Of a stretch of DNA of 64,000 nt, positions 49,318 through 63,159 are shown one piece after another. This DNA comes from Lentinus brumalis (Eukaryota; Basidiomycota; Agaricomycetes; Polyporales; Polyporaceae), in NCBI GenBank assembly GCA_001792895.1, contig MARA01000030.1, positions 248,001 through 312,000 on the forward strand. The letters are read 5' to 3'. Below the pieces are notes generated by a model that worked only from the letters and a program-made list of their open reading frames with translations, was not told the DNA's origin and ran no database searches. The stretch's first letter is position 1. Each line of letters begins with the position of its first letter. The translations under genes were made by a program, and so were the position numbers.

Positions 49318-50513
49318 GTTGAAGTCCTGGACTTCGAATGGGAGCGTTGAAGGTGAAGGAGAGATGTGTGGCCCACTGCCAGTGGGTATCGTTGTGCTGT
49401 GTGCAGTATGGACTCTGAGATCGTTAGTCGTTGCATTATGTTCTTCTCTCTGCTATCGTATTGTTGCAATGCTATCGGTTGTTATGTTGACTCGTCATCC
49501 GAAGCTTAGCTATACTGGGCGCAGACAGCGTCGACACGCTAGCGCTTACAGGTCCTCCCTAGTTTTTTCCGCCCATCATCCTCGCTAATCGAACTCATCT
49601 GTGACACTACTAGTAGTACAGACCACACACGGCTGCTCTTGCTTTGCAGTATTCAACTTCGCTCCGTATGACGACATGAGACATGGACGTCTCCCGCATC
49701 GCGTTCGGTCAGGTGTGGCTAGTCGACGATAAGGCACGGCGGTGGCATTCGGACGGTCCACATGGAGACCGCGCAGGTGCGTGTGCATGTGTTCGTCGCA
49801 GGCTGATGCAAAGCTAGCAACTCACCGTTCTCGAAGTTTGAGTACCGGGGTCGTCGTGAAGATAAATGGCGTCTTACTTGTCGCCTGCATGCGACACCGC
49901 CGGGTCGCGATTTTGCCATCCAGCTGGTGTCTCGATGGTGAGCACGGCGCATTTGTTTCTATATACTCAGTAATTGCACTGGGCTATGATTCATGGTGGC
50001 CGGCCGGCTATGTTACCGTACAAGGTCGATTGCGATCTTATGCTCTTTGCACAATACAGTACTGCACTGTGCGCATGTGCGTTGTTGCGCTGTCGTCAGC
50101 GGGTTTACGAATGAGTGCACATAGCTGGAGTATGGAAGATGTCGGCTCGTATAGCATGCTGACCAGTTCTACGCAGCACGCTATACATGTGGACCATCTG
50201 CCAAGTGTCTGCTCGTGGTCTTCGCGCTAGAAGGGAGGAGCCGCACGTACTGGTACCGCCATGCATCATCCGTCGTCGTCACGCGGCCCTTCTCCCGTAA
50301 CTTCATCTTCGCGATCGCGGGGCCGAAGTTGCGGCCTGTCTTCGCGGAGGTATATAGGTCACCAGGCTGTGGATAGGCTCTGTGTGCACTTCGCCGCCTG
50401 CTCTAGCAACGCGGCTACGTTCTCCGACACGACCTTCCTATCAAGAACTCTCGACTGATCCTACTGTTGACTTATCTCGTACATAGACGACATCGATACT
50501 CCTTCCTGGGAGG
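49318..50513. other. Upstream region of GH43 copy 1
   Basis: No gene is supported. The right end (about 50240-50513) resembles 60650-60913 upstream of GH43 copy 2, including the shared string gcggaggtatataggtcacca, so the promoter was duplicated with the gene. Confidence 0.5.
50351..50356 (+). promoter_or_regulatory. TATA box of GH43 copy 1
   Basis: TATATA lies within a segment shared with the second GH43 promoter, about 160 bp upstream of the ATG at 50514. Confidence 0.5.
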
Positions 50514-50793
50514 ATGCATCTCAATCTGTGGCTCTTCGTGAGCTTCCTCCTCGCGGCGACATCCCTCGCCTCGCCAGCTGTCAACAGCACAGCGTACTCC
50601 AGACGGGCAACCTACAATAACCGTGCGTCTTACTCTCTGTTCTCCCCCACTTCGACACCCCGCTCCATCCGGTGTGGCGCTCGAGTACAGTACAGTCTCG
50701 CCCATTGCTTTATTCGCTGACCCCATCCTTTGCGCTCCGCAGCGATCAAACCTGGAGGAGGTGCCGATCCCTGGGTCCTCAAGTTTGGAGACT

Positions 50794-50799
50794 CCTACT
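50794..50799 (+). repeat. Target site duplication, left
   Basis: CCTACT immediately precedes the left inverted repeat and is repeated at 58331-58336. The uninterrupted paralogue at 61150-61180 has a single CCTACT followed by ACCTGCTC. Confidence 0.9.
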
Positions 50800-50865
50800 T
50801 ATGGACGGCGGGAAGGTCGTGGATGATTTTCGCGCAAGTGCAAGCGCCAAGTCACAGCCACACCC
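50800..50865 (+). repeat. Left terminal inverted repeat
   Basis: 66 bp match 58265-58330 in reverse complement without mismatch. Weaker similarity continues inward for roughly another 150 bp (for example CATTCATGTGTC here against CATTCACGTGTC on the other arm). Confidence 0.95.
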
Positions 50866-51179
50866 GCGGGCCGCGACCCGGTTCGTGCGCCACCCCTCCT
50901 CGTCTCTCTCCTCCCTTGTCGTCGTTCCGAGAAGTTTGGTCTCAGAACGTCCACACCATTCATGTGTCCTCTGTAAGTGCAGTCATGGCATCTGAATTGG
51001 TAAGTGACGGCCAATTGGTCGCCGCTATGTTACGAGAATTCGGACTCCGATCATAAATGCGTATATAAGTCTCGCGCGCGGGCCCGCCACCAACATCGCA
51101 ACCCTTTGCACTACACATCCTACCGCCACAGCGACCAGCTCTTGTATTTTGGAACTCGCATCCCCCCTACTTGGTAGAC

Positions 51180-52799
51180 ATGGTGGACCCAACTGGGAAT
51201 AATCAATGGTACAACGGCGCAGGTGAGTTCACCCGGGTCCCGCAACCATCAGTAGTTCTGAATATTGCTCACCTCTTCCACCTCAGAACCACCGGAAGAG
51301 GAGCTTGTCAAGGAGCTCCACCAGTATGCCAAAGAACGCCTCCCGTTGGAGAGCCGTCTCAAGCGGCTGAAGAAGAAGTTTGAGTACAATATTCAGTAGG
51401 TTCTAACCACACCGTTGCACGAGCACTACTTAACTGACGGTGGTTTTACCTAGGTTGACGAAGCTCAAAGCACTCAACAAGAAGTACAACATACCATCTG
51501 TCCGAAAGCCTCCCCCGTATGAAGTCGCAACGAGCATCGTATGTGAGAGGGCCGGCCGTGACCTTCATCGCCGGAACGGCCCATATGATGTAGTACAGAA
51601 GTTGGCCGTTGATGGCATTCACATCCCTCGGTGAGTACCACCTCCTGTGAGTGCATGACATGGCTGACAGGCTCTCAGAGACACTGTCCGCAAAGTCATG
51701 CGGGAGAACGATCCGATTGGGTTCCAGATACGGAACCCGAAGGACCGCAGCCGCGGCATTCCTCGTGTCCCCTTGACCTCTCCCGGCCGCATGTACGAGA
51801 TCAACTGTGATGGTCACGAGAAGTTTGGTCCATTGGCTTTACGGATGGGCGGGGTTGGGTTCGATATCTACGGTATGCGTGAGAAGGCTTCAGGAACGCT
51901 GCGCTTGTTGGTTACCATTCCGAATGCACGGTATGACGTCGCAATTGGGCATGTGTACCTCGACTACGTAGAGGCTCACGGTGGTGAGTTCGCTCCTTCT
52001 CTTTCTTTGTGCCTGTGCTGATAGAACATCACAGAACTATCCTGTCAGATGACCTGTGACGGTGGCAATGAGACTGGGTACCTCCAGGCGCTCCATGTTG
52101 CTCTGCGGTATGGTTTTATTCGATGCACCACTCTCTAACAACACTCACAATCCTGCAGGAGAGCATTTGCACCTGATCTGGACGAGTCAGTTCACAAGCC
52201 CTTTGTGGCCGTCAAGAGTGTCCATAACGTTGCGATCGAAAACATATGGGCACGCTGGACCAAGAGCGATGGCCAAAACCTACGCACAATCATCATGGAA
52301 GGTCAACGAAATGGTCTCTTTGACCACACGAACCCCGTCCATGTGTACGTCACTAGTAACTGTGGTTCCCATTCATACAAACTCACATTGAGTGCGTTTC
52401 AGCAATCTCTTTCAATGGCTTTGGCCGAAGATTGTGCAGGTCGTCCTGGATAAGTTCCGGGAGTATTGGAACTGTCATCGCGTGCGTGGACAGAAGAAGA
52501 AACTCATGCCTTCGGGTGGCTCACCGAATGACATGTACCTGAACCCTGAGGCATACGGACTCGAGGACTTCGGTATCCCTGTCACTGATCTAGCACTAGT
52601 CAACCGCCTCCGTGACGAACTCCCAGTACCGCGCGAAGAGGCCCTCCGCTTCGTTGATGATGAGTTCAATGCGGCGGCTCAAGAAGCCTATACCGAGATT
52701 GGTTCACCTGCTCTGGAGGCCGAGACAGGTTGGGACACGTTCAGCCGTATGGGTGCGGTGCTCCAGAGGATGTACGATGATCAGGAGGTTGTCGAGTAG
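51180..52799 (+). CDS. DDE/integrase-core transposase of the 7.5-kb element
   Basis: This likely catalyses excision and integration of the element. Seven exons (51180-51222, 51287-51395, 51454-51630, 51679-51983, 52035-52107, 52159-52344, 52403-52799) sum to 1290 bp, giving 429 aa. The N-terminal half is helical and basic (RLKRLKKKF, LTKLKALNKKY), followed by a helix-turn-helix-like VVQKLAVDGIHIPRDTVRKV. The catalytic triad is read as D154 (INCDGHEKFG), D220 (MTCDGGNET) and E263 (VHNVAIENIWARW), matching integrase-core proteins common in mushroom genomes. The C-terminus carries HRVRGQKKKLMPSGGSPNDMY, typical of the same group. All introns are GT-AG and the frame is open. Catalytic activity is inferred. 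Confidence 0.88.
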
Positions 52800-53469
52800 T
52801 TGTTTAATCGTACTACTGGTTGCCCTTTGTAGCCGCACATACCCTTAGACCCATAGCATGTTAATGGAACCCGGTGTGGACTGCCACTGTTCGACTTCGT
52901 TTCTCAGCTCTCAAGGCTTGATTCTTGTCTCTAATTCTTGTTTGTCTCCCAGTCTTGTCTCTCTCTCGACTCACCCCCTCATATATAAGTTCTAACCAGT
53001 AAGTCTAAGCAAGACGCGATCACGAGGGTGCGTAAAGGTGAGTGGTGTAAAGATTGAATTATTTACGAATCCCACTGTATGTAGATACCGTGTTATCTGT
53101 ACAGTATGTGTCCTGGAGGTCTAGAGTAGGTGTAGAAATTGATTTGGAGGGGATATGTATCATACGAGGAGAGGGACGGGAGATTTGTGGGTCTTGAGTT
53201 GGGCTCGGGATGACGCAAAGTGCTGATTAGTAGTTGCTCGCCGTACTACACTCAGAATACATTGCGTGCATCGGGAACCCTGGACGTCGTTGGTGGGGGG
53301 CCATGGGGCTGACGTCGAGGAGGTGGGTGCTGAATGAGTCAGCACAACTGAGAGCGACAGCGATAGCAGTAAGTATACACACGTGCACATCAATGGGAAA
53401 GGTAATGATATAGGGACCCAGAACATGGTAATACAGTAATAGTACAAAGACAGCTCAAATCACCATAGC
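52800..53469. other. Convergent spacer inside the transposon
   Basis: This is the 3' region shared by the transposase and the alpha-kinase gene. No gene is seen. Confidence 0.6.
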
Positions 53470-56103
53470 TCAGCCATCCTGAGGCCCCGCTGGTGGACCA
53501 GCGCGCTGAGCTCCTTCTGGCTCAGACTCAGACTCTGAGTCCTCGGGGGCAGTGAACAAGGGCTCGCTGGTACCCTGGGTACGGGGCCGAGCACGAGACA
53601 CCTGAGGGTGGAGTTGAGCCGGGAGGGACAGCTCGGGCAGCTCAAGCTCATTGCACGCCTTGTGGCAGCGGTGGTCCTTGACGAAACTAGCAATCCCTTC
53701 TAGCCCGTGGTCGCCAATCCCAGACTCGCTAGGATGGGTATCAGCTGGCAGCTATATTTGTATTGCGCGAGAATCATGAAAACTCACCCTTCCGGTGTAT
53801 GAGTCATGACATCAAACAGGATATCTCCGTATTCCATATGGGGACCGGGGAGTCGACCTGCGGAACCTGCAAGTGTTGATATGGTTAGAGCCTCAATGAG
53901 TGAACACAAGGTGACGTTAACATACTTTGCAGATCCGCGAAAACAATAGTGTGCTTGCTCCATTCATAAGCAAAGTGAACAAATGCGCCCACCGTTGCAT
54001 GCTTTTTATCGGAATGGCTTGGATGTACTAAGGTGCCGCTCCATCGTGTGACACTCTTCGGACGTCTTGGCTCGAGCAGCCAGACAATTGCCGCATCGGG
54101 ATCCTCTGTTGAGATCTCCTCCCATTGCTCAGCAGAAATGCCAGATGCAGCAGACGGGCCCTCGGTGCCGACAATCTCTCGAGCAAGATAGCACGAAGAG
54201 AATGCAAATGCTGTCACGAGTAAGTCAGACATAGATCAATTGAAGGAGGGCGGTCAGGAACACAAACATTCACTTATCTCCGCATCTGCGCTCTTGGCTT
54301 GGTCGCCAAAGATATCATAGAAGAACTTGCCGAGAGTCAGCCGCCGCGCCTCGAGGTCAAGGAAATCAGCGTTCTCCTTCCAGGTAACTCTCTCTGGGCC
54401 GTTGCCGATCTCAAAGAAGCGCTTCGCGACATATGACTCAACCGCATCACCATCACCGAGCGAGGCCTACAGGTAGTACTTCAAGTTAGTCATGTGCCCA
54501 ACCGGACGCGAAGTTGGACTGACCAGGAAGACCTTCTTTGTCTTGCCCATGCTGTCTGCAGTATCAGCAATACGACCGGCACGGGGGCTGGAAACTTCTG
54601 TGGCTTCCCAGGTCACCGTGATCTTGCCGCTGATGGTGTCCGCCTTAATTGTTGCAAGCTCAAATTGCACATCCTGGAGCCTCGTGTGCGAAGAAACAAA
54701 TCGCCCGTACGGACTGGCTGAGCCTCCGGCAGATGGACGCCACGCAGACCCAGGGACAAAGGTTGACTTGAGAGGCATATGAGCTGCCCCGACCAATCAG
54801 CGATAGTGCCCACCATATACCATAAGTGTGACGTACTTTTCGACTTCTTGGCTGAAACAACAGACACATGTGAGCCAGTGCGCTTGCGTGAAGCTCCTGA
54901 ACCTCTGCCCGCTGGTTTCGCTGAGGGTGGGGCCTGACAGCCAGTGCGGGACTCAAACTGCAGCATTACATCTGGATAAGTAAGGTTGATACTAGATTAT
55001 AACGCTTACGTACCTTGTCGACGTCGATCAATAGTTCGAGCATCATGTACTGGCCTTTGTTGTGCTTCATTGAAGCCCGCGGCTTCCCGAAGTAGTAGTC
55101 CCGGTGCAGCAGACAGTCATGAGCGTCGTAAAAGGCTCCGACTGTTCCATGCTCCGTGTTGCGCTCCGGGATGATGTTCCCAGCCCAACGGAGGGTCACG
55201 AACTCCCTAGAGAATTTATGCCGTGAGCTATATGATCATCTCACCACAAGTTGTATGTGAAATCTTACGGAGTCAGGCTCGAGGATGCCATGCTGTCCCA
55301 TGTCTTGTTCCAAGTGTCTAAACACTCAGTGATGACGTCTGATAGAGGGCGGTTGTCAGCACAGGCATGCATTTGACTACAGTACAGATATACTAACCAT
55401 CAATGAGCGCGTCCGCTGGCCAGGTGCGCATCAATTCACCCATCGTGATCGTGAGTTCCTTGCCTCCAGCAGAGAAGCGGGGGTTGAAGTAGACCTGGAT
55501 ATAACGTGTGCTCGAACAGTTGGTCGAGTTTGAGAACTGCGGTGGTTTGGGAGCCGCAGCCCCAGGCCGAATTGGACTGCCAGAAAGCCCAGAAGCGAGT
55601 GAGGGTACAGGGAGTGCAGCTGTTTGTGCTGCCTGGGTGGAACGACCAAACAGACGGGACTGCGAGGCAACCGCACGGGTAGCATGCATGTCTTGTGCCA
55701 CCTGTTCCAGTGTCCCCTCACGGTTGCGGCCTGCAAGACAACCGTAGTCAGTAACCAGAGACATGTCTGCTACACAGAGTAATGAAAACGCACGCAGAGT
55801 ACGGCATCGGCCGCACAAATCATCGACGAACAGTTTCCCATATGCACCGCAGTCCTGACAGTGTGGCCAGGACTTCGGCATAGTGTCAGTACCAAGGATG
55901 CTCTCGACAATATCAGATTGGCTTACCAGAACCTGTTCGGCATGATCGAGCCGCCCTGCAGCCTCATCTTCCTGCACAGTTAAGCAACGGGCACAAAGCC
56001 CAGGAAGGGTCTTGTTAATGAAGTCGCCCCCACAACCATTGTCACCGTCGCATCGTGTAGTTGTGTGAGGCCTTGTTGCGGCAGGACCAGCAAGATCCGC
56101 CAT
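53470..56103 (-). CDS. Alpha-type protein kinase with cysteine-rich N-terminus, transposon cargo
   Basis: This is an atypical serine/threonine kinase of the MHCK/eEF2K class. Ten exons (56103-55794, 55730-55398, 55338-55269, 55206-55014, 54957-54837, 54783-54524, 54466-54274, 54210-53926, 53866-53788, 53728-53470) sum to 2103 bp, giving 700 aa. Residues 1-103 hold paired CxxC-type clusters (CDGDNGCGG, CARC, CQDCG, CGRCR) likely to bind zinc. The kinase domain runs from about 380 to 650: ESYVAKRFF (ATP-site Lys), VGAFVHFAYEWS, IVFADLQS, ESGIGDHGLEGI (Gly-rich loop) and DHRCHKAC, the zinc module typical of alpha-kinases. An acidic tail follows (EDSESESEPEG). It has no signal peptide or TM. It is entirely inside the transposon, so it moves with it; whether it aids transposition or acts on the host is unknown. 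Confidence 0.88.
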
Positions 56104-56527
56104 GATAGGATGAGCACACGGCGGCAGAGAACAGGAGAGGGAGGGGCAGTGGACAGACGGTCGGAGCGGGATGAAGTGAGGACCGGGAAGGATTCCGGGC
56201 TGCTTATATAGCAGGCAGGATGGTTAGCTCCCCAGCATTCGAACCAAAAAGCGAGCGGCACTTACCGAGTGCCGGCCTTTGTAGGTCTTTGTGCTTGTGC
56301 CAATGCCATGGCCAACAATGGCGGACAATGCGCGGCTGGCGCCTAGCGGAGCTTAGGGCTCCGCGTCTCGTGCTCGAAGCTTTCCCGAGATGTTGAACCT
56401 ACCAGCAGAGGACTTCCTCGCACGTCTTCAGGTCTTAATAACCTGTCCGGACAGCAGGACGACGGTCTGACACGGACGATGAGCAAATGTAAGCAGTACA
56501 AACAGAATAAAAGACGTACTGCGTTCA

Positions 56528-56552
56528 GGAACCACTCGTGCTGAGTGGTTCC
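56528..56552. repeat. Hairpin, 10-bp perfect stem
   Basis: GGAACCACTC, a 5-nt loop, then GAGTGGTTCC. It lies about 430 bp upstream of the alpha-kinase ATG. Confidence 0.75.
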
Positions 56553-57466
56553 ATACCTGACTGTGTTTGCGGTCACCACGTTTGAGGTCACAACGCAGAG
56601 CATCATGTTGGGTGCATGTTCATATGCATGTATCGGAGTATGGTTCGGGGGGTACGCAAGACATCCCAGCTCGTCCGAGCTCAGCATCTGCACGCTAAGG
56701 GCATAAGCATAGAACATGGACAGCGGACACTGAGGGACAAGCCTGTCGGGTAGACGGGGTGAGTCTCACACTCAGGAGATGTCGAGTAAGCCAAATGTGC
56801 TGTATAGATGCAAGCGAATACAACCACTCCTACACTACTCATCGTACAGGTAGTCATGACGCACTTGCCCATCCCGACGCCATGCCTGCCCGTGCACACA
56901 GCACATCATATTGAGTGTGATCGCACAGCAGACCATGCACGCGATGGCCGCATGCGCCTTCTCCACATTATCGTGCAGGAAGATTGCTCACCGACGCGCA
57001 GACAGTGACACCTATGCGCCGCCCATGCACGCGCGAGTCCCTCTCCCAGCCTTCCATTGCAAGAGGACATGTCTGTATGCATTGAGGTACTGTATCAGCG
57101 ACATCTTGGACCAACAGCGCCCTCTGACACCCGGCACCCAAGCACGAGTTCACAGGCGGCGACAGACTTGTGCAAACATAGATAATAGGACATACCTTTG
57201 CACCAATATAAAGCGACCCAACGTGCGAGAGTGGCAAGGGAGACAGAGACGAGAGGCTTGCACGCAAAACGGGACACCCGACGAACGAGCCGAAAGTGTA
57301 CTAAAAAAGGGGATTGTTCAGTAGCCGAACAATTCCTATATAAGGAACAGAACTGGGACATATACTTTATGAGGAGGGAAGCAAAGCAGCTCTGGCCAGC
57401 AATTTGAAGAGCGTGCCAGGTGAAGAGCAAGGCGGCAAGGTCAATGGAGAGCGCATCGGCGGATGG

Positions 57467-57516
57467 CAAGACTGTGTCGACACACGTCATAGTATGACGT
57501 GCGTCGACACAGTCTT
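57467..57516. repeat. Near-perfect 50-bp palindrome
   Basis: CAAGACTGTGTCGACACACG and its near-perfect reverse complement meet at a short centre (CATAGTATG). Arms are about 24 bp with one mismatch. It could be a folded end of a small nested element or a replication/regulatory structure. Confidence 0.8.
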
Positions 57517-57724
57517 GTTAGACAGGGGTGGTATAAGCGGGTGCAGAACTCCTAGGAAACAAAGAGGGGTCGCTGGCACGTAGAGACTGACCGAGCATGC
57601 TGATCTCGACGTTCTGGGCAATGCTGCTGCCGCGGTCATCACATACGTGAGCGACGTTCCTATCGTTGTGCACTGTATTAGATGAATACTTGATAGAGAG
57701 AGAGGAAGCGAGACGAGATGAGAC

Positions 57725-57780
57725 GTGCTACCATGATTGGCGCAGTGTGCTAGAGGCGCACTGCGCCAAATATGGTACCA
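57725..57780. repeat. Long hairpin with GGCGCAGTG stem
   Basis: Left arm taccatgattggcgcagtgt and right arm gcgcactgcgccaaatatgg pair with few mismatches around a short loop. Confidence 0.7.
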
Positions 57781-58163
57781 TGATAACGCGCTCATGGCGC
57801 GAATAAAGGAAGGAAGGAAGGGGGGGGAAGAAGTCATACGGCACAACGTGGGCGCAGGATGCGCTAGCAACTTGAACAACTCCTCCATGCTGAACTTTAC
57901 CCGGGGGCAGTGACCGGGACGGGGGTCTGAAGACGGGGGCAAGGAAGTAAACTTACTAGTTCTGTACAACCGTGGCACCAACCCCACATGACCTTTTCGC
58001 GCGAACCCTTGTAATGGAGTCTTGCAGGCGCGATACAAAAGGCCTGATGCTGGCGTATACTCCGCGGCGAATGAGGTTCCCAGAAAGTAAGTTATGATGA
58101 GTACAGCGAACACAAGAGACACGTGAATGCTGAGCTCGCTGCGGGAGATTGAGGGAGCACAAG

Positions 58164-58230
58164 AGGAGAGGACGAGGACGAGGACGAGGACGAGGAGAGA
58201 AGAGGACGACCGACGAGGACGAGGACAAGT
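58164..58230 (+). repeat. GAGGAC repeat tract
   Basis: Consecutive GAGGAC/GAGGACGAC units lie just inside the right terminal repeat. The left arm has only a CTCCTCGTCTCTCTCC counterpart, so the tract has expanded on one side. Confidence 0.75.
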
Positions 58231-58264
58231 GGCGGCGCGCGCACGGACCGGCTCGCGGCTCGCG

Positions 58265-58330
58265 GGGTGTGGCTGTGACTTGGCGCTTGCACTTGCGCGA
58301 AAATCATCCACGACCTTCCCGCCGTCCATA
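58265..58330 (-). repeat. Right terminal inverted repeat
   Basis: This is the reverse complement of 50800-50865 over 66 bp, ending gccgtccata at the GH43 junction. Confidence 0.95.
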
Positions 58331-58336
58331 CCTACT
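58331..58336 (+). repeat. Target site duplication, right
   Basis: CCTACT follows the right inverted repeat and continues into ACCTGCTCTAC, the GH43 exon. Confidence 0.9.
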
Positions 58337-59473
58337 ACCTGCTCTACACGACCGGAGGAAACGTTCAGGTCACACGTTCCAGCAATCTCGCCCAGTGGGC
58401 TCAGACGGGCACCGTCGTGTACCAGCCACCGTCAGGGTACACAGACGTGTGGGCCCCGGAGCTGCACTACATCAACGGCCGGTTCTACATCTATGTCGCG
58501 ATGGCGCAGAATGGCGACAATGCGTCGCACCGGATGTATGTCCTCCAGGGCACTAGCACGACCGACCCTCTGCAGCCGTTCAACGTGAGCTTGCGCATGC
58601 ATCGCTCGAGATTTGCGAGCATATCTGACTATGCGCAACGTAGTTGGTCGGCCAAATCACCTCGTCAGATAACAACTGGGCTATCGACGGCACTGTCCTT
58701 GTTGTAAGACCTCATTGTCGCTCTATGATGCTGCGTAGTGATATCATCATGCGTTGCAGTACCAGAACGACCCTAGCAGACTGTAAGCATGCTTCCGTCC
58801 TCTTTGTCGTCAGCGCTGACGTTCGTCTGGAATAGCTACTTCATCTGGTCCGGATGGGCAGACTCTTCTCACCAGACCACGCAGAACCTCTATATCGCAC
58901 GCATGAGCTCCCCGACGCAGATCTCTGGCGCGCGTGTTCTGCTTCACGAGCCTACGCCCTCTTGGCAGCAGAGCGGCGGGCAGGCCATCAACGAGGGCCC
59001 CGAGATCCTCGTCAACAACGGCCGCACATTCCTCGTTTACTGTGAGCGGCTCCGCCTTCTTCATTTGTGCCCACTGTCCTAACGTAGGTCGCATAGCCGC
59101 CGCCGGCTCCTGGACTTCCGCATATTGTCTCGCCTTCATGGGTATCGACGGAGGCGCTGACCCGCGTACGTCTGCCTCGCGCCTGAACTCCTCTTGTGCT
59201 GATTTCGTCCCGGCAGTCGTCCGCAGCAATTGGTGGGTCCTCGACGACCGTCCGGTCATGTCGAGCTCCAGCGTCGCGTTCGGGCCCGGGCACGCCTCGT
59301 TCCCGTACGACCGCAATGGCGTGCCATATGTCGTCTATCATGCTGACGCTGCAGCGGACGGCGGCTGGAACGGGCGTACGATCCGCACGCAGTCGTTTGG
59401 CTGGAACGCGGACAGCTCTCCTGCGTTTCCGAGCCCTGCGGGCTTTGACACTGCGTTCCCGCTCCCTGCGTGA

Positions 59474-60913
59474 GGTCGAACTGTTCGTCTTGGTACGCAC
59501 CTGTGCGAGAATTCTCAATGTATTGTATGTGTTGTTTCACCTTATTTGAGAGTTCGACTGGAAACCTGGGCCGCTGGCTCGCTTGCATGTCAATGCAGGG
59601 AGTCCAAACATCGACTACGTACGACTGTTTGCGCGCTGCTCAAGTAAGTACTGCGGGAGGAGGAGCGGTGGTGCTTGTGCGCCCGAGAGGGAGTTTGGGC
59701 GCTAGTATGTGACCATGGCGTCGCTGGGCGTCTTCCGAATTGTGCTCTTGTCTTCTACCACAACGATGCTCCCTCGCTTTCCCTCACTGGTGCCTCTCGG
59801 CTACTCAGGACGGTCTTCAAAAATGTATTGAAATTCTGAAGGTGCTGCTTTTTAGCCTCATGACGTGGAGCCTTTTCGACTCCGCGGGCTACAACTCGTT
59901 CCGTCCCAAACACTGCTAATCAACCGTGCGTCGTCGTAGGTTGTGTGTGTGTAGATTTACTTACAACCGTCAGTTCGCTTATTATTGTGAATCGAAAGTC
60001 ATCGAACCCACCACTACGATCGCGCGGCTCTTGCTTCACACTAGGTGCGCGTGCACGTGTTCCTCGATGCAGAGCTGCTTGGTCTCGAATTTCGAGCGGC
60101 AGGGAAGCTTCTGGTGGGTCGGCGTCAGACCTCAGAGTCCATGGCCGTGTGCTACTTCCGTGAATTGCGGCTCGTGCAACTGCATGCGGAACCGCGGGGT
60201 ACCGAAATGGCCATCGTGGCGTCTCCGTGCCTCAGACTCACATGTACAGGAAGTTGCATGATCACGATTTTGACTGCTTGACGTGTGGACCGCGATGCAG
60301 TTGCTGCGACCTGGATGACTGTGATGTGCGCGGAGGCGATGCGGAAGGTGGAGAAATGTCCGCTGTCTCAAGCACGATGGAAGTTGTTGATCATAACCTT
60401 CAGTACAGAATGTTTCCCCCGCATCGGAATATGCTTGCGGACAGCCATTGACCGGCTAAGAAGGTAGATTGCGATCATAGGCCCCGTTGCTCGATGTAAT
60501 CAGAATGGTCGTCAGCGGACCATCAAACTGCTTGCGCCTTGGCACCGTCGGGACATGGGCGACGTTTAACTGTTCAGCATAAGTGATGGACCAATCCTAC
60601 GCAGCACACCATCCAGGGTCATTTGCCTTGGTCGGGTCCTCGCGCTAGAAGGGGCAAGCCGCAATGCATGTACGGCCATGCATCATCCATCGTCATCACG
60701 CGCCGTATTAGCTTCGTGTTCGCGATTGCGAGCCCGAAACTGCGGCCTGTCTGCGCGGAGGTATATAGGTCACCATGCTGTCCCTGAACTCTGTGAGTAC
60801 CCCATCGCCTGCCAGCAACGCATTTACACCGCCTTCCTACAGCGAGCCATTGATCTTGAATCGTTGACCTGGTCTCCAAGTCATTGACGTCATCGGCATT
60901 CCTTTCTGTAACG
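59474..60913. other. Intergenic between the GH43 copies
   Basis: No gene is supported. From about 60650 the sequence resembles the promoter of GH43 copy 1. Confidence 0.5.
60762..60767 (+). promoter_or_regulatory. TATA box of GH43 copy 2
   Basis: TATATA lies in the same context as at 50351 (ggaggtatataggtcacca), about 150 bp upstream of the ATG at 60914. Confidence 0.5.
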
Positions 60914-62325
60914 ATGCATTTCAATCTCTGGCTCTTCGTGAGCTTCCTCCTCACGGCGAAAGCCCTCGCATCGCCAACTGTCAACAGCACAACCTGCTCC
61001 CGACGGGCAACCTACAACAACCGTGCGTGTTTGCTCTCATCGATATTGTCTTCCCCACCTCGACACCGCCATGCTTCATCTTCAAATGCTGACCCCATCC
61101 TCCGCGCTCCGCAGCGATCAAGCCTGAAGGAGGCGCAGATCCCTGGGTCCTCAAGTACGAAGACTCCTACTACCTGCTCTACTCGACCGGAGACAACGTC
61201 CAGGTCACAAGGTCGACTAACCTCGCGCAATGGGCTCAGACGGGCACCGTCGTGTACCAACCCCCGTCAGGGTACACGGACGTATGGGCCCCGGAGCTGC
61301 ACTACATCAACGGCCAATTCTACATCTAGGTCGCGATGGCGCAGAACGGCGACAACGCGTCACACCGGATGTATGTCCTCCAGGGGACTAGCACGACGGA
61401 CCCTCTGCAGCCGTTCAACGTGAGTGTACTACAATATTCCATCGCTCGAGATTTGCGAGCATAGCTGACAGTGCGTAACGCAGTTGGTCGGCCAGATCAT
61501 CTCATCCGATAACAACTGGGCCATCGACGGTACCGTCCTTGTTGTAAGTCTCGTTCTCAGCTATGCCGCTCCCAGTTGTCTTACCATGCATTGCAGTACC
61601 AGAACGACCCTAGCAGACTGTAAGCATGATTTACACCTCTTTGTCGTCCGCGCTGCCGCTGACGTTTCTCTGTAATAGCTACTTCATCTGGTCCGGCTGG
61701 GCAGACTCTTCTCACCAGACGACGCAGAATCTCTACATCGCACCCATGAGCTCCCCGATGCAGATCTCTGGCGCGCGTGTTCTGCTTCACGAGCCGACGC
61801 CCTCTTGGCAGCAGAGCGGCGGACAGGCCATCAATGAGGGCCCCGAGATCCTCGTCAACAACGGCCGCACCTTCCTCATCTACTGTGAGTAGCTCTGCCC
61901 TTCTCCATGTGTGTCTCTTATGCTCACGTACGACGCGTAGCCGCTGCCGCCTCATGGACTTCTGCATACTGCCTCGCCTTTATGGGTATCGACGGGGGTG
62001 CTGACCCACGTAGGTCCCTATTTGCGTGACCTCCCTCGCGGTGTACTATACTCATCTCGTTCACGCAGTCGTCCGGAGCAACTAGTGGGTCCTCGACGAC
62101 CACCCGGTCATGTCGAGCTCCAGCGTCTCGTTCGGACCCGGGCACGCGTCGTTCCCATACGACCGCAACGGCGTGCCGTACATCGCGTACCACGCCGACA
62201 CCACGCCGGACGGCGGCTGGGACGGGCGCACGATCCGCACGCAGTCGTTCGGCTGGAACGCGGACGGCTCGCCTGCGTTCCCGAGCCCTATGGGCTTCGA
62301 CACAGCGTTCCTGCTCCCTGCGTGA
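60914..62325 (+). pseudogene. GH43 copy 2 with two in-frame TAG codons
   Basis: This is a paralogue of the split GH43 gene. Exons 60914-61022, 61115-61419, 61484-61543, 61597-61619, 61679-61884, 61941-62009 and 62069-62325 have the same lengths as those of copy 1, including a 23-bp microexon. Signal peptide and the motifs ADPWVL, DVWAPELH, WAIDGTVL and INEGPEIL are kept. Two nonsense codons are present: TAG at 61327-61329 replaces the Tyr of FYIYVAM, and TAG at 62083-62085 replaces the first Trp of NWWVLDD. The first stop would leave about 106 residues, before most of the beta-propeller. Splice sites are all intact, so inactivation looks recent. Confidence 0.88.
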
Positions 62326-63159
62326 GGGGGATCTGTCGTTGACACTGGTTTTGTCAAAGAGTGTACCGCGTATGAGAGGAAGTATTCCACGCGCTCACGT
62401 CGCGTGTGTGGGCGGTGTGCGGCAGTTGCACTGCACGCGAATTCTGTTAGCTTGAACAAACTCCTGAGCCCTTCGCACCGTGCCGACTTGTCAAGCCTTT
62501 CGGAGCAAGCCACCCGATTCGACGTTCATGCGAATGAGCTGGGGAACTGCCACCAAGACGCAGTCAAGCAGTTGTTCCGCGAGGAGAATCAGATTTTTGG
62601 CAGCTTGTGCCCTGTATAAGTAATCGGTGCGTTCGTCTTCCCTATGATTGCAACACATGCTCTCAGGGGAATGGGAGAAAGTCGCGAATCAGAGTAACGC
62701 CGACGCTCAGACAACAGGAAGATCCTCCAGAGGGCATCCAGGACATGGAGCGGATCATCTGTCCCTAGCCCCGGACAGTCACGTATTCAAAAGCTCGAGT
62801 CCATCCGCTGAATAGCGTGTTACACGATACGGCGAAAGCGATATGTCCGAGACAGTCTTTCCATCTCTTCCTACACGATCGGCCCTCGAAGTCGAGATAT
62901 GTTGTCGTCTTGGACGGCGCATGTGGCGGTTCATCGTGCCATGCTCGTGTGAACCACTCAGTAACGAGTTCACATACGCCCACAGACTCGTGAGGTAGAG
63001 TGCGTTTCCATCATGATCCTTATACCGCGCTCGGCGGCGTCATCTTCTGGATCTTCCCTTGCTGCTCTCCCCGGTTGCGCCGAGTCTCTTTCGTGCACTC
63101 AGCCTTCCCCTTGCCTTCCCTCGTCTTCTCCTGTCCCTCCGCATTCCTCCCTTCCGTCG
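62326..63159. other. Upstream region of membrane gene D
   Basis: No gene is supported. It contains the inverted counterpart of the spacer and upstream block found before copies A-C, for example the string gccgacgctcag near 62699 (the reverse complement is present near 12318). Confidence 0.5.
62968..63044 (+). promoter_or_regulatory. Conserved upstream block, membrane gene D
   Basis: It starts gttcacatacgcccacagac and ends cggcggcgtcatc, the reverse complement of the block upstream of A-C, 116-192 bp before the ATG. It includes ATCATGATCCTTATACCGC, matching the middle of the other copies. Confidence 0.55.

Follow-up and report, generated by a model that had tools for sequence, protein, structure and literature searches.

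Few accounts are known to us of protein kinases retained by eukaryotic DNA transposons, and the locus described here raises the question of whether an α-kinase gene lying inside such a transposon in Lentinus brumalis belongs to the element or was caught up in it by accident. The window, i.e. the whole stretch of 64,000 nucleotides that was analysed, covers positions 248001–312000 of one contig (C61) of a 53.4-Mb assembly in 136 contigs. Within it, a 7,531-bp insertion at 50800–58330 breaks a gene for a glycosyl hydrolase of family 43 (GH43; PF04616, 1.1e-19), one of the tandem GH43 genes that occupy ~50500–62336 with ~80% DNA identity. The insertion is delimited by the following features.

50794–50799, unstranded: left copy of the target-site duplication CCTACT, read from the sequence and present as a single copy in the paralogue at 61166–61171
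50800–50865, + strand: left terminal inverted repeat, starting TATGGACGG, 66/66 against the right repeat
58265–58330, - strand: right terminal inverted repeat, ending CCGTCCATA, 66/66 against the left repeat
58331–58336, unstranded: right copy of the target-site duplication CCTACT, read from the sequence
61166–61171, unstranded: equivalent of the empty site, CCTACT occurring once in the GH43 paralogue that lacks the insertion (60589–62336), located by alignment of the flanks

The outermost bases of the terminal repeats are TATGG..CCATA and, as read from the alignment, imperfect similarity continues past the perfect 66 bp to ~92 bp (~50891 on the left) with one 1-bp gap; the 66-mer has at least two matches in the assembly. 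Once joined, the two flanks match the tandem paralogue in one alignment that spans the junction, with 80% identity over 1,822 columns. An earlier note on this DNA had pointed to the perfect repeats, the duplication and the paralogue as an empty site, and all three observations were confirmed. The repeats, CCTACT on both sides and the single CCTACT in the aligned paralogue show that the element truly inserted here and that its ends are intact; that these match perfectly suggests a recent event.

Two genes converge on each other in the interior, with 670 bp between them, and are accompanied by one conspicuous noncoding feature.

51180–52799, + strand: transposase gene, seven exons, 429 residues (gene model; PF24764; invariant columns; fold of a homologue)
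53470–56103, - strand: α-kinase gene, ten exons, 700 residues (gene model; PF02816; homologue columns; fold of a homologue)
57464–57520, unstranded: near-perfect noncoding palindrome with 28-bp arms and a 1-bp centre, conserved in a related element on contig C43 and more weakly in one on C24

The splice sites of both genes are those of sequence-based gene models, and neither model contains a stop. The transposase (modelled exons 51180-51222, 51287-51395, 51454-51630, 51679-51983, 52035-52107, 52159-52344 and 52403-52799) matches the PF24764 integrase core (2.3e-7), with putative DDE residues D154, D220 and E263 in columns that are invariant in the homologue alignment, and a homologue from D. 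nitida, 70% identical to it, has an integrase/TnsB-like fold. It has no HHCC motif, just two cysteines preceding D154. The kinase (modelled exons 56103-55794, 55730-55398, 55338-55269, 55206-55014, 54957-54837, 54783-54524, 54466-54274, 54210-53926, 53866-53788 and 53728-53470) matches PF02816 with 9.1e-23 and 81.7 bits (cut-off 21.3) and has the lysine, glutamate, aspartate, glutamine and aspartate expected of the family (K444, E540, D586, Q588 and D607) and an HxCxxxC zinc site at 634–640, features that place it in the α-kinase family; the columns matching its key residues are invariant in 22 homologues. Eight cysteines fall within residues 18–100, and the protein combines its C-terminal α-kinase with two putative zinc sites and a basic linker, RKR..KK; a ubiquitin-like domain is predicted in the structure model of a kinase homologue. 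The suggestion that the interior holds two intact spliced genes, an integrase-core transposase and an α-kinase protein, thus stands, with the nuance that the ~2.1 kb arm beside the kinase (56104–58264) has merely scattered open reading frames of at most 280 residues. This arm is barely alignable to the C43 relative except at its end and at the palindrome.

Besides the ends, the palindrome is the standout conserved noncoding block between the C61 and C43 elements. Its relatives lie near 275447–275493 on C43, near 870010–870054 on C24, at C97:8075-8165 and at C58:15318-15408; the copies on C97 and C58 do not differ across their 91 bp, the C97 sequence lengthens the arms to ~40 bp, and both of these contigs also carry PF24764 matches. 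A second, imperfect palindrome (57726–57780; 25-bp arms, 5-bp loop) is located in the same noncoding arm and is not among the palindromes of C43.

The characters that set the classification are the ends, duplication and gene order described for IS3EU transposons. Where it deals with rust IS3EU elements, the account of Kojima (2025; PMC12730594) gives 6-bp duplications, terminal repeats longer than 30 bp and TAYGG..CCRTA ends, and the IS3EU passages of PMC10045372 give for IS3EU/GingerRoot an integrase-type DDE transposase lacking HHCC, TA..TA ends and usually 6-bp duplications. The present element has TATGG..CCATA ends, perfect 66-bp repeats, the 6-bp duplication CCTACT and a transposase of this type, judged by the PF24764 match, the putative D154/D220/E263 triad and the integrase/TnsB fold hits. 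Duplications in related families of the same genome are 5 bp in two cases and 9 bp in one. Such variation (6, 5 and 9 bp) is what favours assigning the transposase to a separate superfamily, an integrase-core lineage of its own that merely resembles IS3EU, but the TAYGG..CCRTA ends, the repeats longer than 30 bp, the 6-bp duplication and the oppositely oriented α-kinase fit the relevant passages of PMC12730594, and we consider a separate superfamily quite improbable. Membership of IS3EU is very probable. No Tet_JBP match was found within 20 kb of any of ten kinase loci in the genome, which separates the element from the TET-bearing IS3EU families. Our overall reading, in which we have good confidence, is of a complete, probably recent cut-and-paste transposon of IS3EU type in a TET-free two-gene form, with the kinase as a proposed accessory.

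Loci elsewhere in the source genome were collected by searches with both proteins and the two families, followed by inspection of selected stretches. At least ten α-kinase loci were obtained (C61, C43, C24, C49, C76, C86, C65 and three on C82), at five of which (C61, C43, C24, C49 and C76) a related transposase converges on the kinase within a few kilobases. Inverted repeats enclose four of these five pairs; none were found around the C76 pair in the stretch examined. Two members of the pairs score just below the Pfam thresholds (C49 kinase piece, 20.6 bits with a cut-off of 21.3; C76 transposase, 24.5 with a cut-off of 26). Counted from the transposase side, a kinase is present at five of the six loci of this wider group, and at the sixth (C66) none was recognised in the 1.2 kb up to the contig end.

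A search for further copies of the terminal repeat, as the earlier note had suggested, gave C43 as the sole other locus with repeats of the C61 type, and this locus too encloses a kinase. Its 103-bp repeat pair (seven mismatches, 7.5 kb apart) is homologous to the C61 ends; the right end reads TATGG and the outermost bases of the left end are lost. The kinase model there contains one in-frame stop, as does the transposase model at C49. The C24 pair has a 51-bp ungapped repeat block with seven mismatches near TA..TA ends and a 9-bp direct repeat, CCTGCACGG, outside, while C49 has an 85-bp repeat pair (TACCG..CGGTA) with 5-bp CCACG outside. Inverted repeats thus surround the pairs at C43, C24 and C49. 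Duplication length differs between families, being 6 bp for C61, 5 bp for two C49-type insertions and 9 bp for C24. The second C49-type insertion is a 703-bp copy (C82:1602163-1602865) with CCATT duplicated on both sides; a 2.2-kb copy at C109:66135-68325 has C24-type ends, of which the right one is incomplete. Both short copies are too small for the two genes, which suggests that the ends move in trans. Since each full-length family found is represented by one copy, transposition is something that we infer from structure.

These loci bear directly on accidental capture, i.e. that in this lineage an ordinary integrase-core transposon acquired a kinase gene from neighbouring host DNA. Some kinases do stand without a transposase, as such a reading would allow (the earlier note had counted a kinase at a conserved syntenic position without the transposase against its proposal): none was seen in the 14 kb examined at C86, including 8.9 kb downstream, or in 2.2–2.5 kb downstream of the C65 and one of the C82 kinases. 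These, however, are distant relatives of the element's kinase, and against capture stand the convergent pairs at four other loci of the same genome, three of them with surrounding inverted repeats. Three equal-scoring α-kinase matches with 17-kb spacing on C82 (1388018, 1405066 and 1422120) suggest tandem duplication, with a similar match at C65:436919; low-complexity repeats follow one of the C82 kinases and the C65 kinase.

The genome's stronger matches to PF24764, 56 at the exon level or ~30 loci by manual grouping, look like another integrase lineage; none adjoins a detected α-kinase hit, and at four of the loci (C49:1370-1380 kb, C104, C82:292-302 kb and C53) no kinase was found in the DNA examined. 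Four weak Tet_JBP matches, all below the Pfam cut-off, lie within 10 kb of PF24764 matches (C104:593006 and 594909; C44:605665 and 612733; C13:1038585 and 1031194; C1:174505 and 182944), compared with ~0.3 expected from 29 and 30 loci; no ends were found at the C104 locus. This other lineage may be TET-associated.

Outside the source genome, similarity-limited lists of 51 transposase and 46 kinase homologues have 15 species in common, all of which we take from their names to be mushroom-forming or related fungi. Eight same-contig pairs occur in seven of the 15, whereas independent placement of the genes, in genomes assumed to be 35 Mb in size, would give ~0.84. No same-contig pair was seen in the other eight species with both hits, and a missing pair means little here, the lists being limited by similarity. 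Locus tags are consecutive in T. versicolor (4881/4882) and M. crinis-equi (003811/003812); these are two of the four species with serial-looking tags in both lists, the tags of G. sinense and M. kentingensis not being adjacent. In G. leucocontextum both genes lie on one contig of 12,993 bp. Pairs in seven other species are again difficult to reconcile with capture in a single lineage.

The histories of the two genes were compared over 12 pairs (C61, C43, C24, C49 and eight from other species; C76 was left out). Transposase and kinase distances are correlated with a Mantel r of 0.952 (P 5e-5, the lowest value attainable with 20,000 permutations), or 0.94 when C49 is removed, and five of nine splits are common to the two trees (permutation P 5e-5); relatedness inflates both tests. 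Four of the shared splits have support of 99–100 in the transposase tree and 96–100 in the kinase tree, and support for the fifth is low (59 and 49). The well supported splits group C24 with Ganoderma leucocontextum, one Epithele copy with the other, C61 with C43, and the latter two with Daedaleopsis. Every transposase split with support of at least 99, four in all, recurs in the kinase tree; the four that are absent from it have support of 35–55, and one kinase-tree split, Gloeophyllum with Mycena haematopus (99), is missing from the weakly resolved transposase tree. The two C24 genes are 66% and 49% identical to those of G. leucocontextum but 50% and 37% identical to the copies in their own genome, and that both C24 genes side with Ganoderma is accounted for most simply if the two were inherited or transferred together. 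This shared history, the C24 case included, leaves accidental capture scarcely credible. The kinase appears to be a regular component of the element, which is almost certainly a kinase-bearing transposon; the proposal that the kinase is a bona fide element gene was upheld by the repeated convergent pairs, the same-contig pairs of other species and the matching histories.

What the kinase does for its carrier is a separate matter. Differences between the C61 and C43 copies show an excess at third codon positions (54/30/216 in the transposase and 187/138/418 in the kinase), with amino-acid identities of 83% and 62%, respectively; comparison of these sequences shows that both genes are under constraint, the kinase more weakly. 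Constraint and low copy number are also compatible with a kinase kept for the benefit of the fungus, or as a self-protecting or killing device favouring carriers, with the transposon mainly a vehicle. Pairs at differing loci, their patchy distribution across species, the broken host gene at C61 and the short copies, which show that the ends themselves move, make this improbable, and the matched histories together with the constraint argue that the kinase serves the element.

In the mechanism that we propose, the DDE transposase would move the element by cut-and-paste, cutting at the TA..TA ends and inserting at staggered target cuts 6 bp apart. The kinase, an accessory protein retained because the element itself profits from it, would act in the nucleus by phosphorylating the transposase or host chromatin and silencing factors, thereby permitting or regulating transposition, much as TET/JBP enzymes have been suggested to relieve other fungal transposons of silencing. 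It would be brought to DNA or chromatin; the N-terminal zinc sites, the RKR..KK stretch, which could be a nuclear signal, and the predicted ubiquitin-like domain suggest recruitment of this kind. We put forward this nuclear accessory role, read from sequence features, tentatively, at slightly less than even chances. The kinase might instead be core machinery required for the reaction itself. It accompanies transposases that are only remotely related within a single genome (for C49, 29–32% identity to the other three; for C76, 22–26%) and is also reported in TET-bearing IS3EU elements in the corresponding part of PMC12730594, but it does not appear in the IS3EU account in the main text of PMC10045372 (0 occurrences), and the short copies carry no information on a need in trans. 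Core machinery is on balance unlikely, and an accessory role is preferred.

More broadly, and with a little under even confidence, an ancient α-kinase may be the second component of IS3EU-type elements in mushrooms, rusts and truffles, inherited with the transposase, so that their movement would be controlled by phosphorylation and much of the basidiomycete α-kinase expansion would be cargo. An α-kinase family is described as ‘highly expanded in the rusts’ in the pertinent passage of PMC4469406, and PF02816 is listed in a tabulated comparison of rust domains in PMC5295586. If the rust genes sit in such elements, their expansion reflects mobile-element cargo and not host signalling. With its empty-site paralogue, the complete copy described here offers a clean start for excision tests with and without the kinase.

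The earlier note had taken the combination of transposase and α-kinase to be undescribed, which did not hold: the TET/JBP section of Kojima (2025; PMC12730594) reports oppositely oriented α-kinases in TET/JBP-bearing IS3EU, so that the combination is not new and its kind is already known. That paper treats the α-kinase in one passage, in which its status as a passenger or otherwise is left open. Searches of one open-access library yielded no description of the TET-free mushroom form, of its breadth or of the co-evolution. The TET-bearing IS3EU elements of rust fungi and Tuber indicum are alike in the opposite orientation of transposase and α-kinase, stated there for all TET-bearing families, and the rust families in their ends, repeat length and duplication; they differ in placing a TET/JBP gene between the two, where the present element has 670 bp of intergenic DNA and no Tet_JBP. 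IS3EU/GingerRoot as outlined in PMC10045372 is alike in its transposase, ends and duplication, with the kinase unmentioned in that outline. Kyakuja-Dileera-Zisupton (KDZ) and Plavaka elements with TET/JBP genes are likewise basidiomycete DNA transposons with an accessory enzyme gene, but the duplications given in the relevant part of PMC12730594 are 8-bp for Zisupton and 2-3-bp for Plavaka, the ends of which also differ; KDZ membership was rejected on the 6-bp duplication, the 8-bp length being that stated for Zisupton. From α-kinases of the MHCK A, TRPM7 and eEF2K class, the element's kinase differs in being transposon-borne and in having putative zinc sites, a predicted ubiquitin-like domain and a basic linker in front of the catalytic domain.
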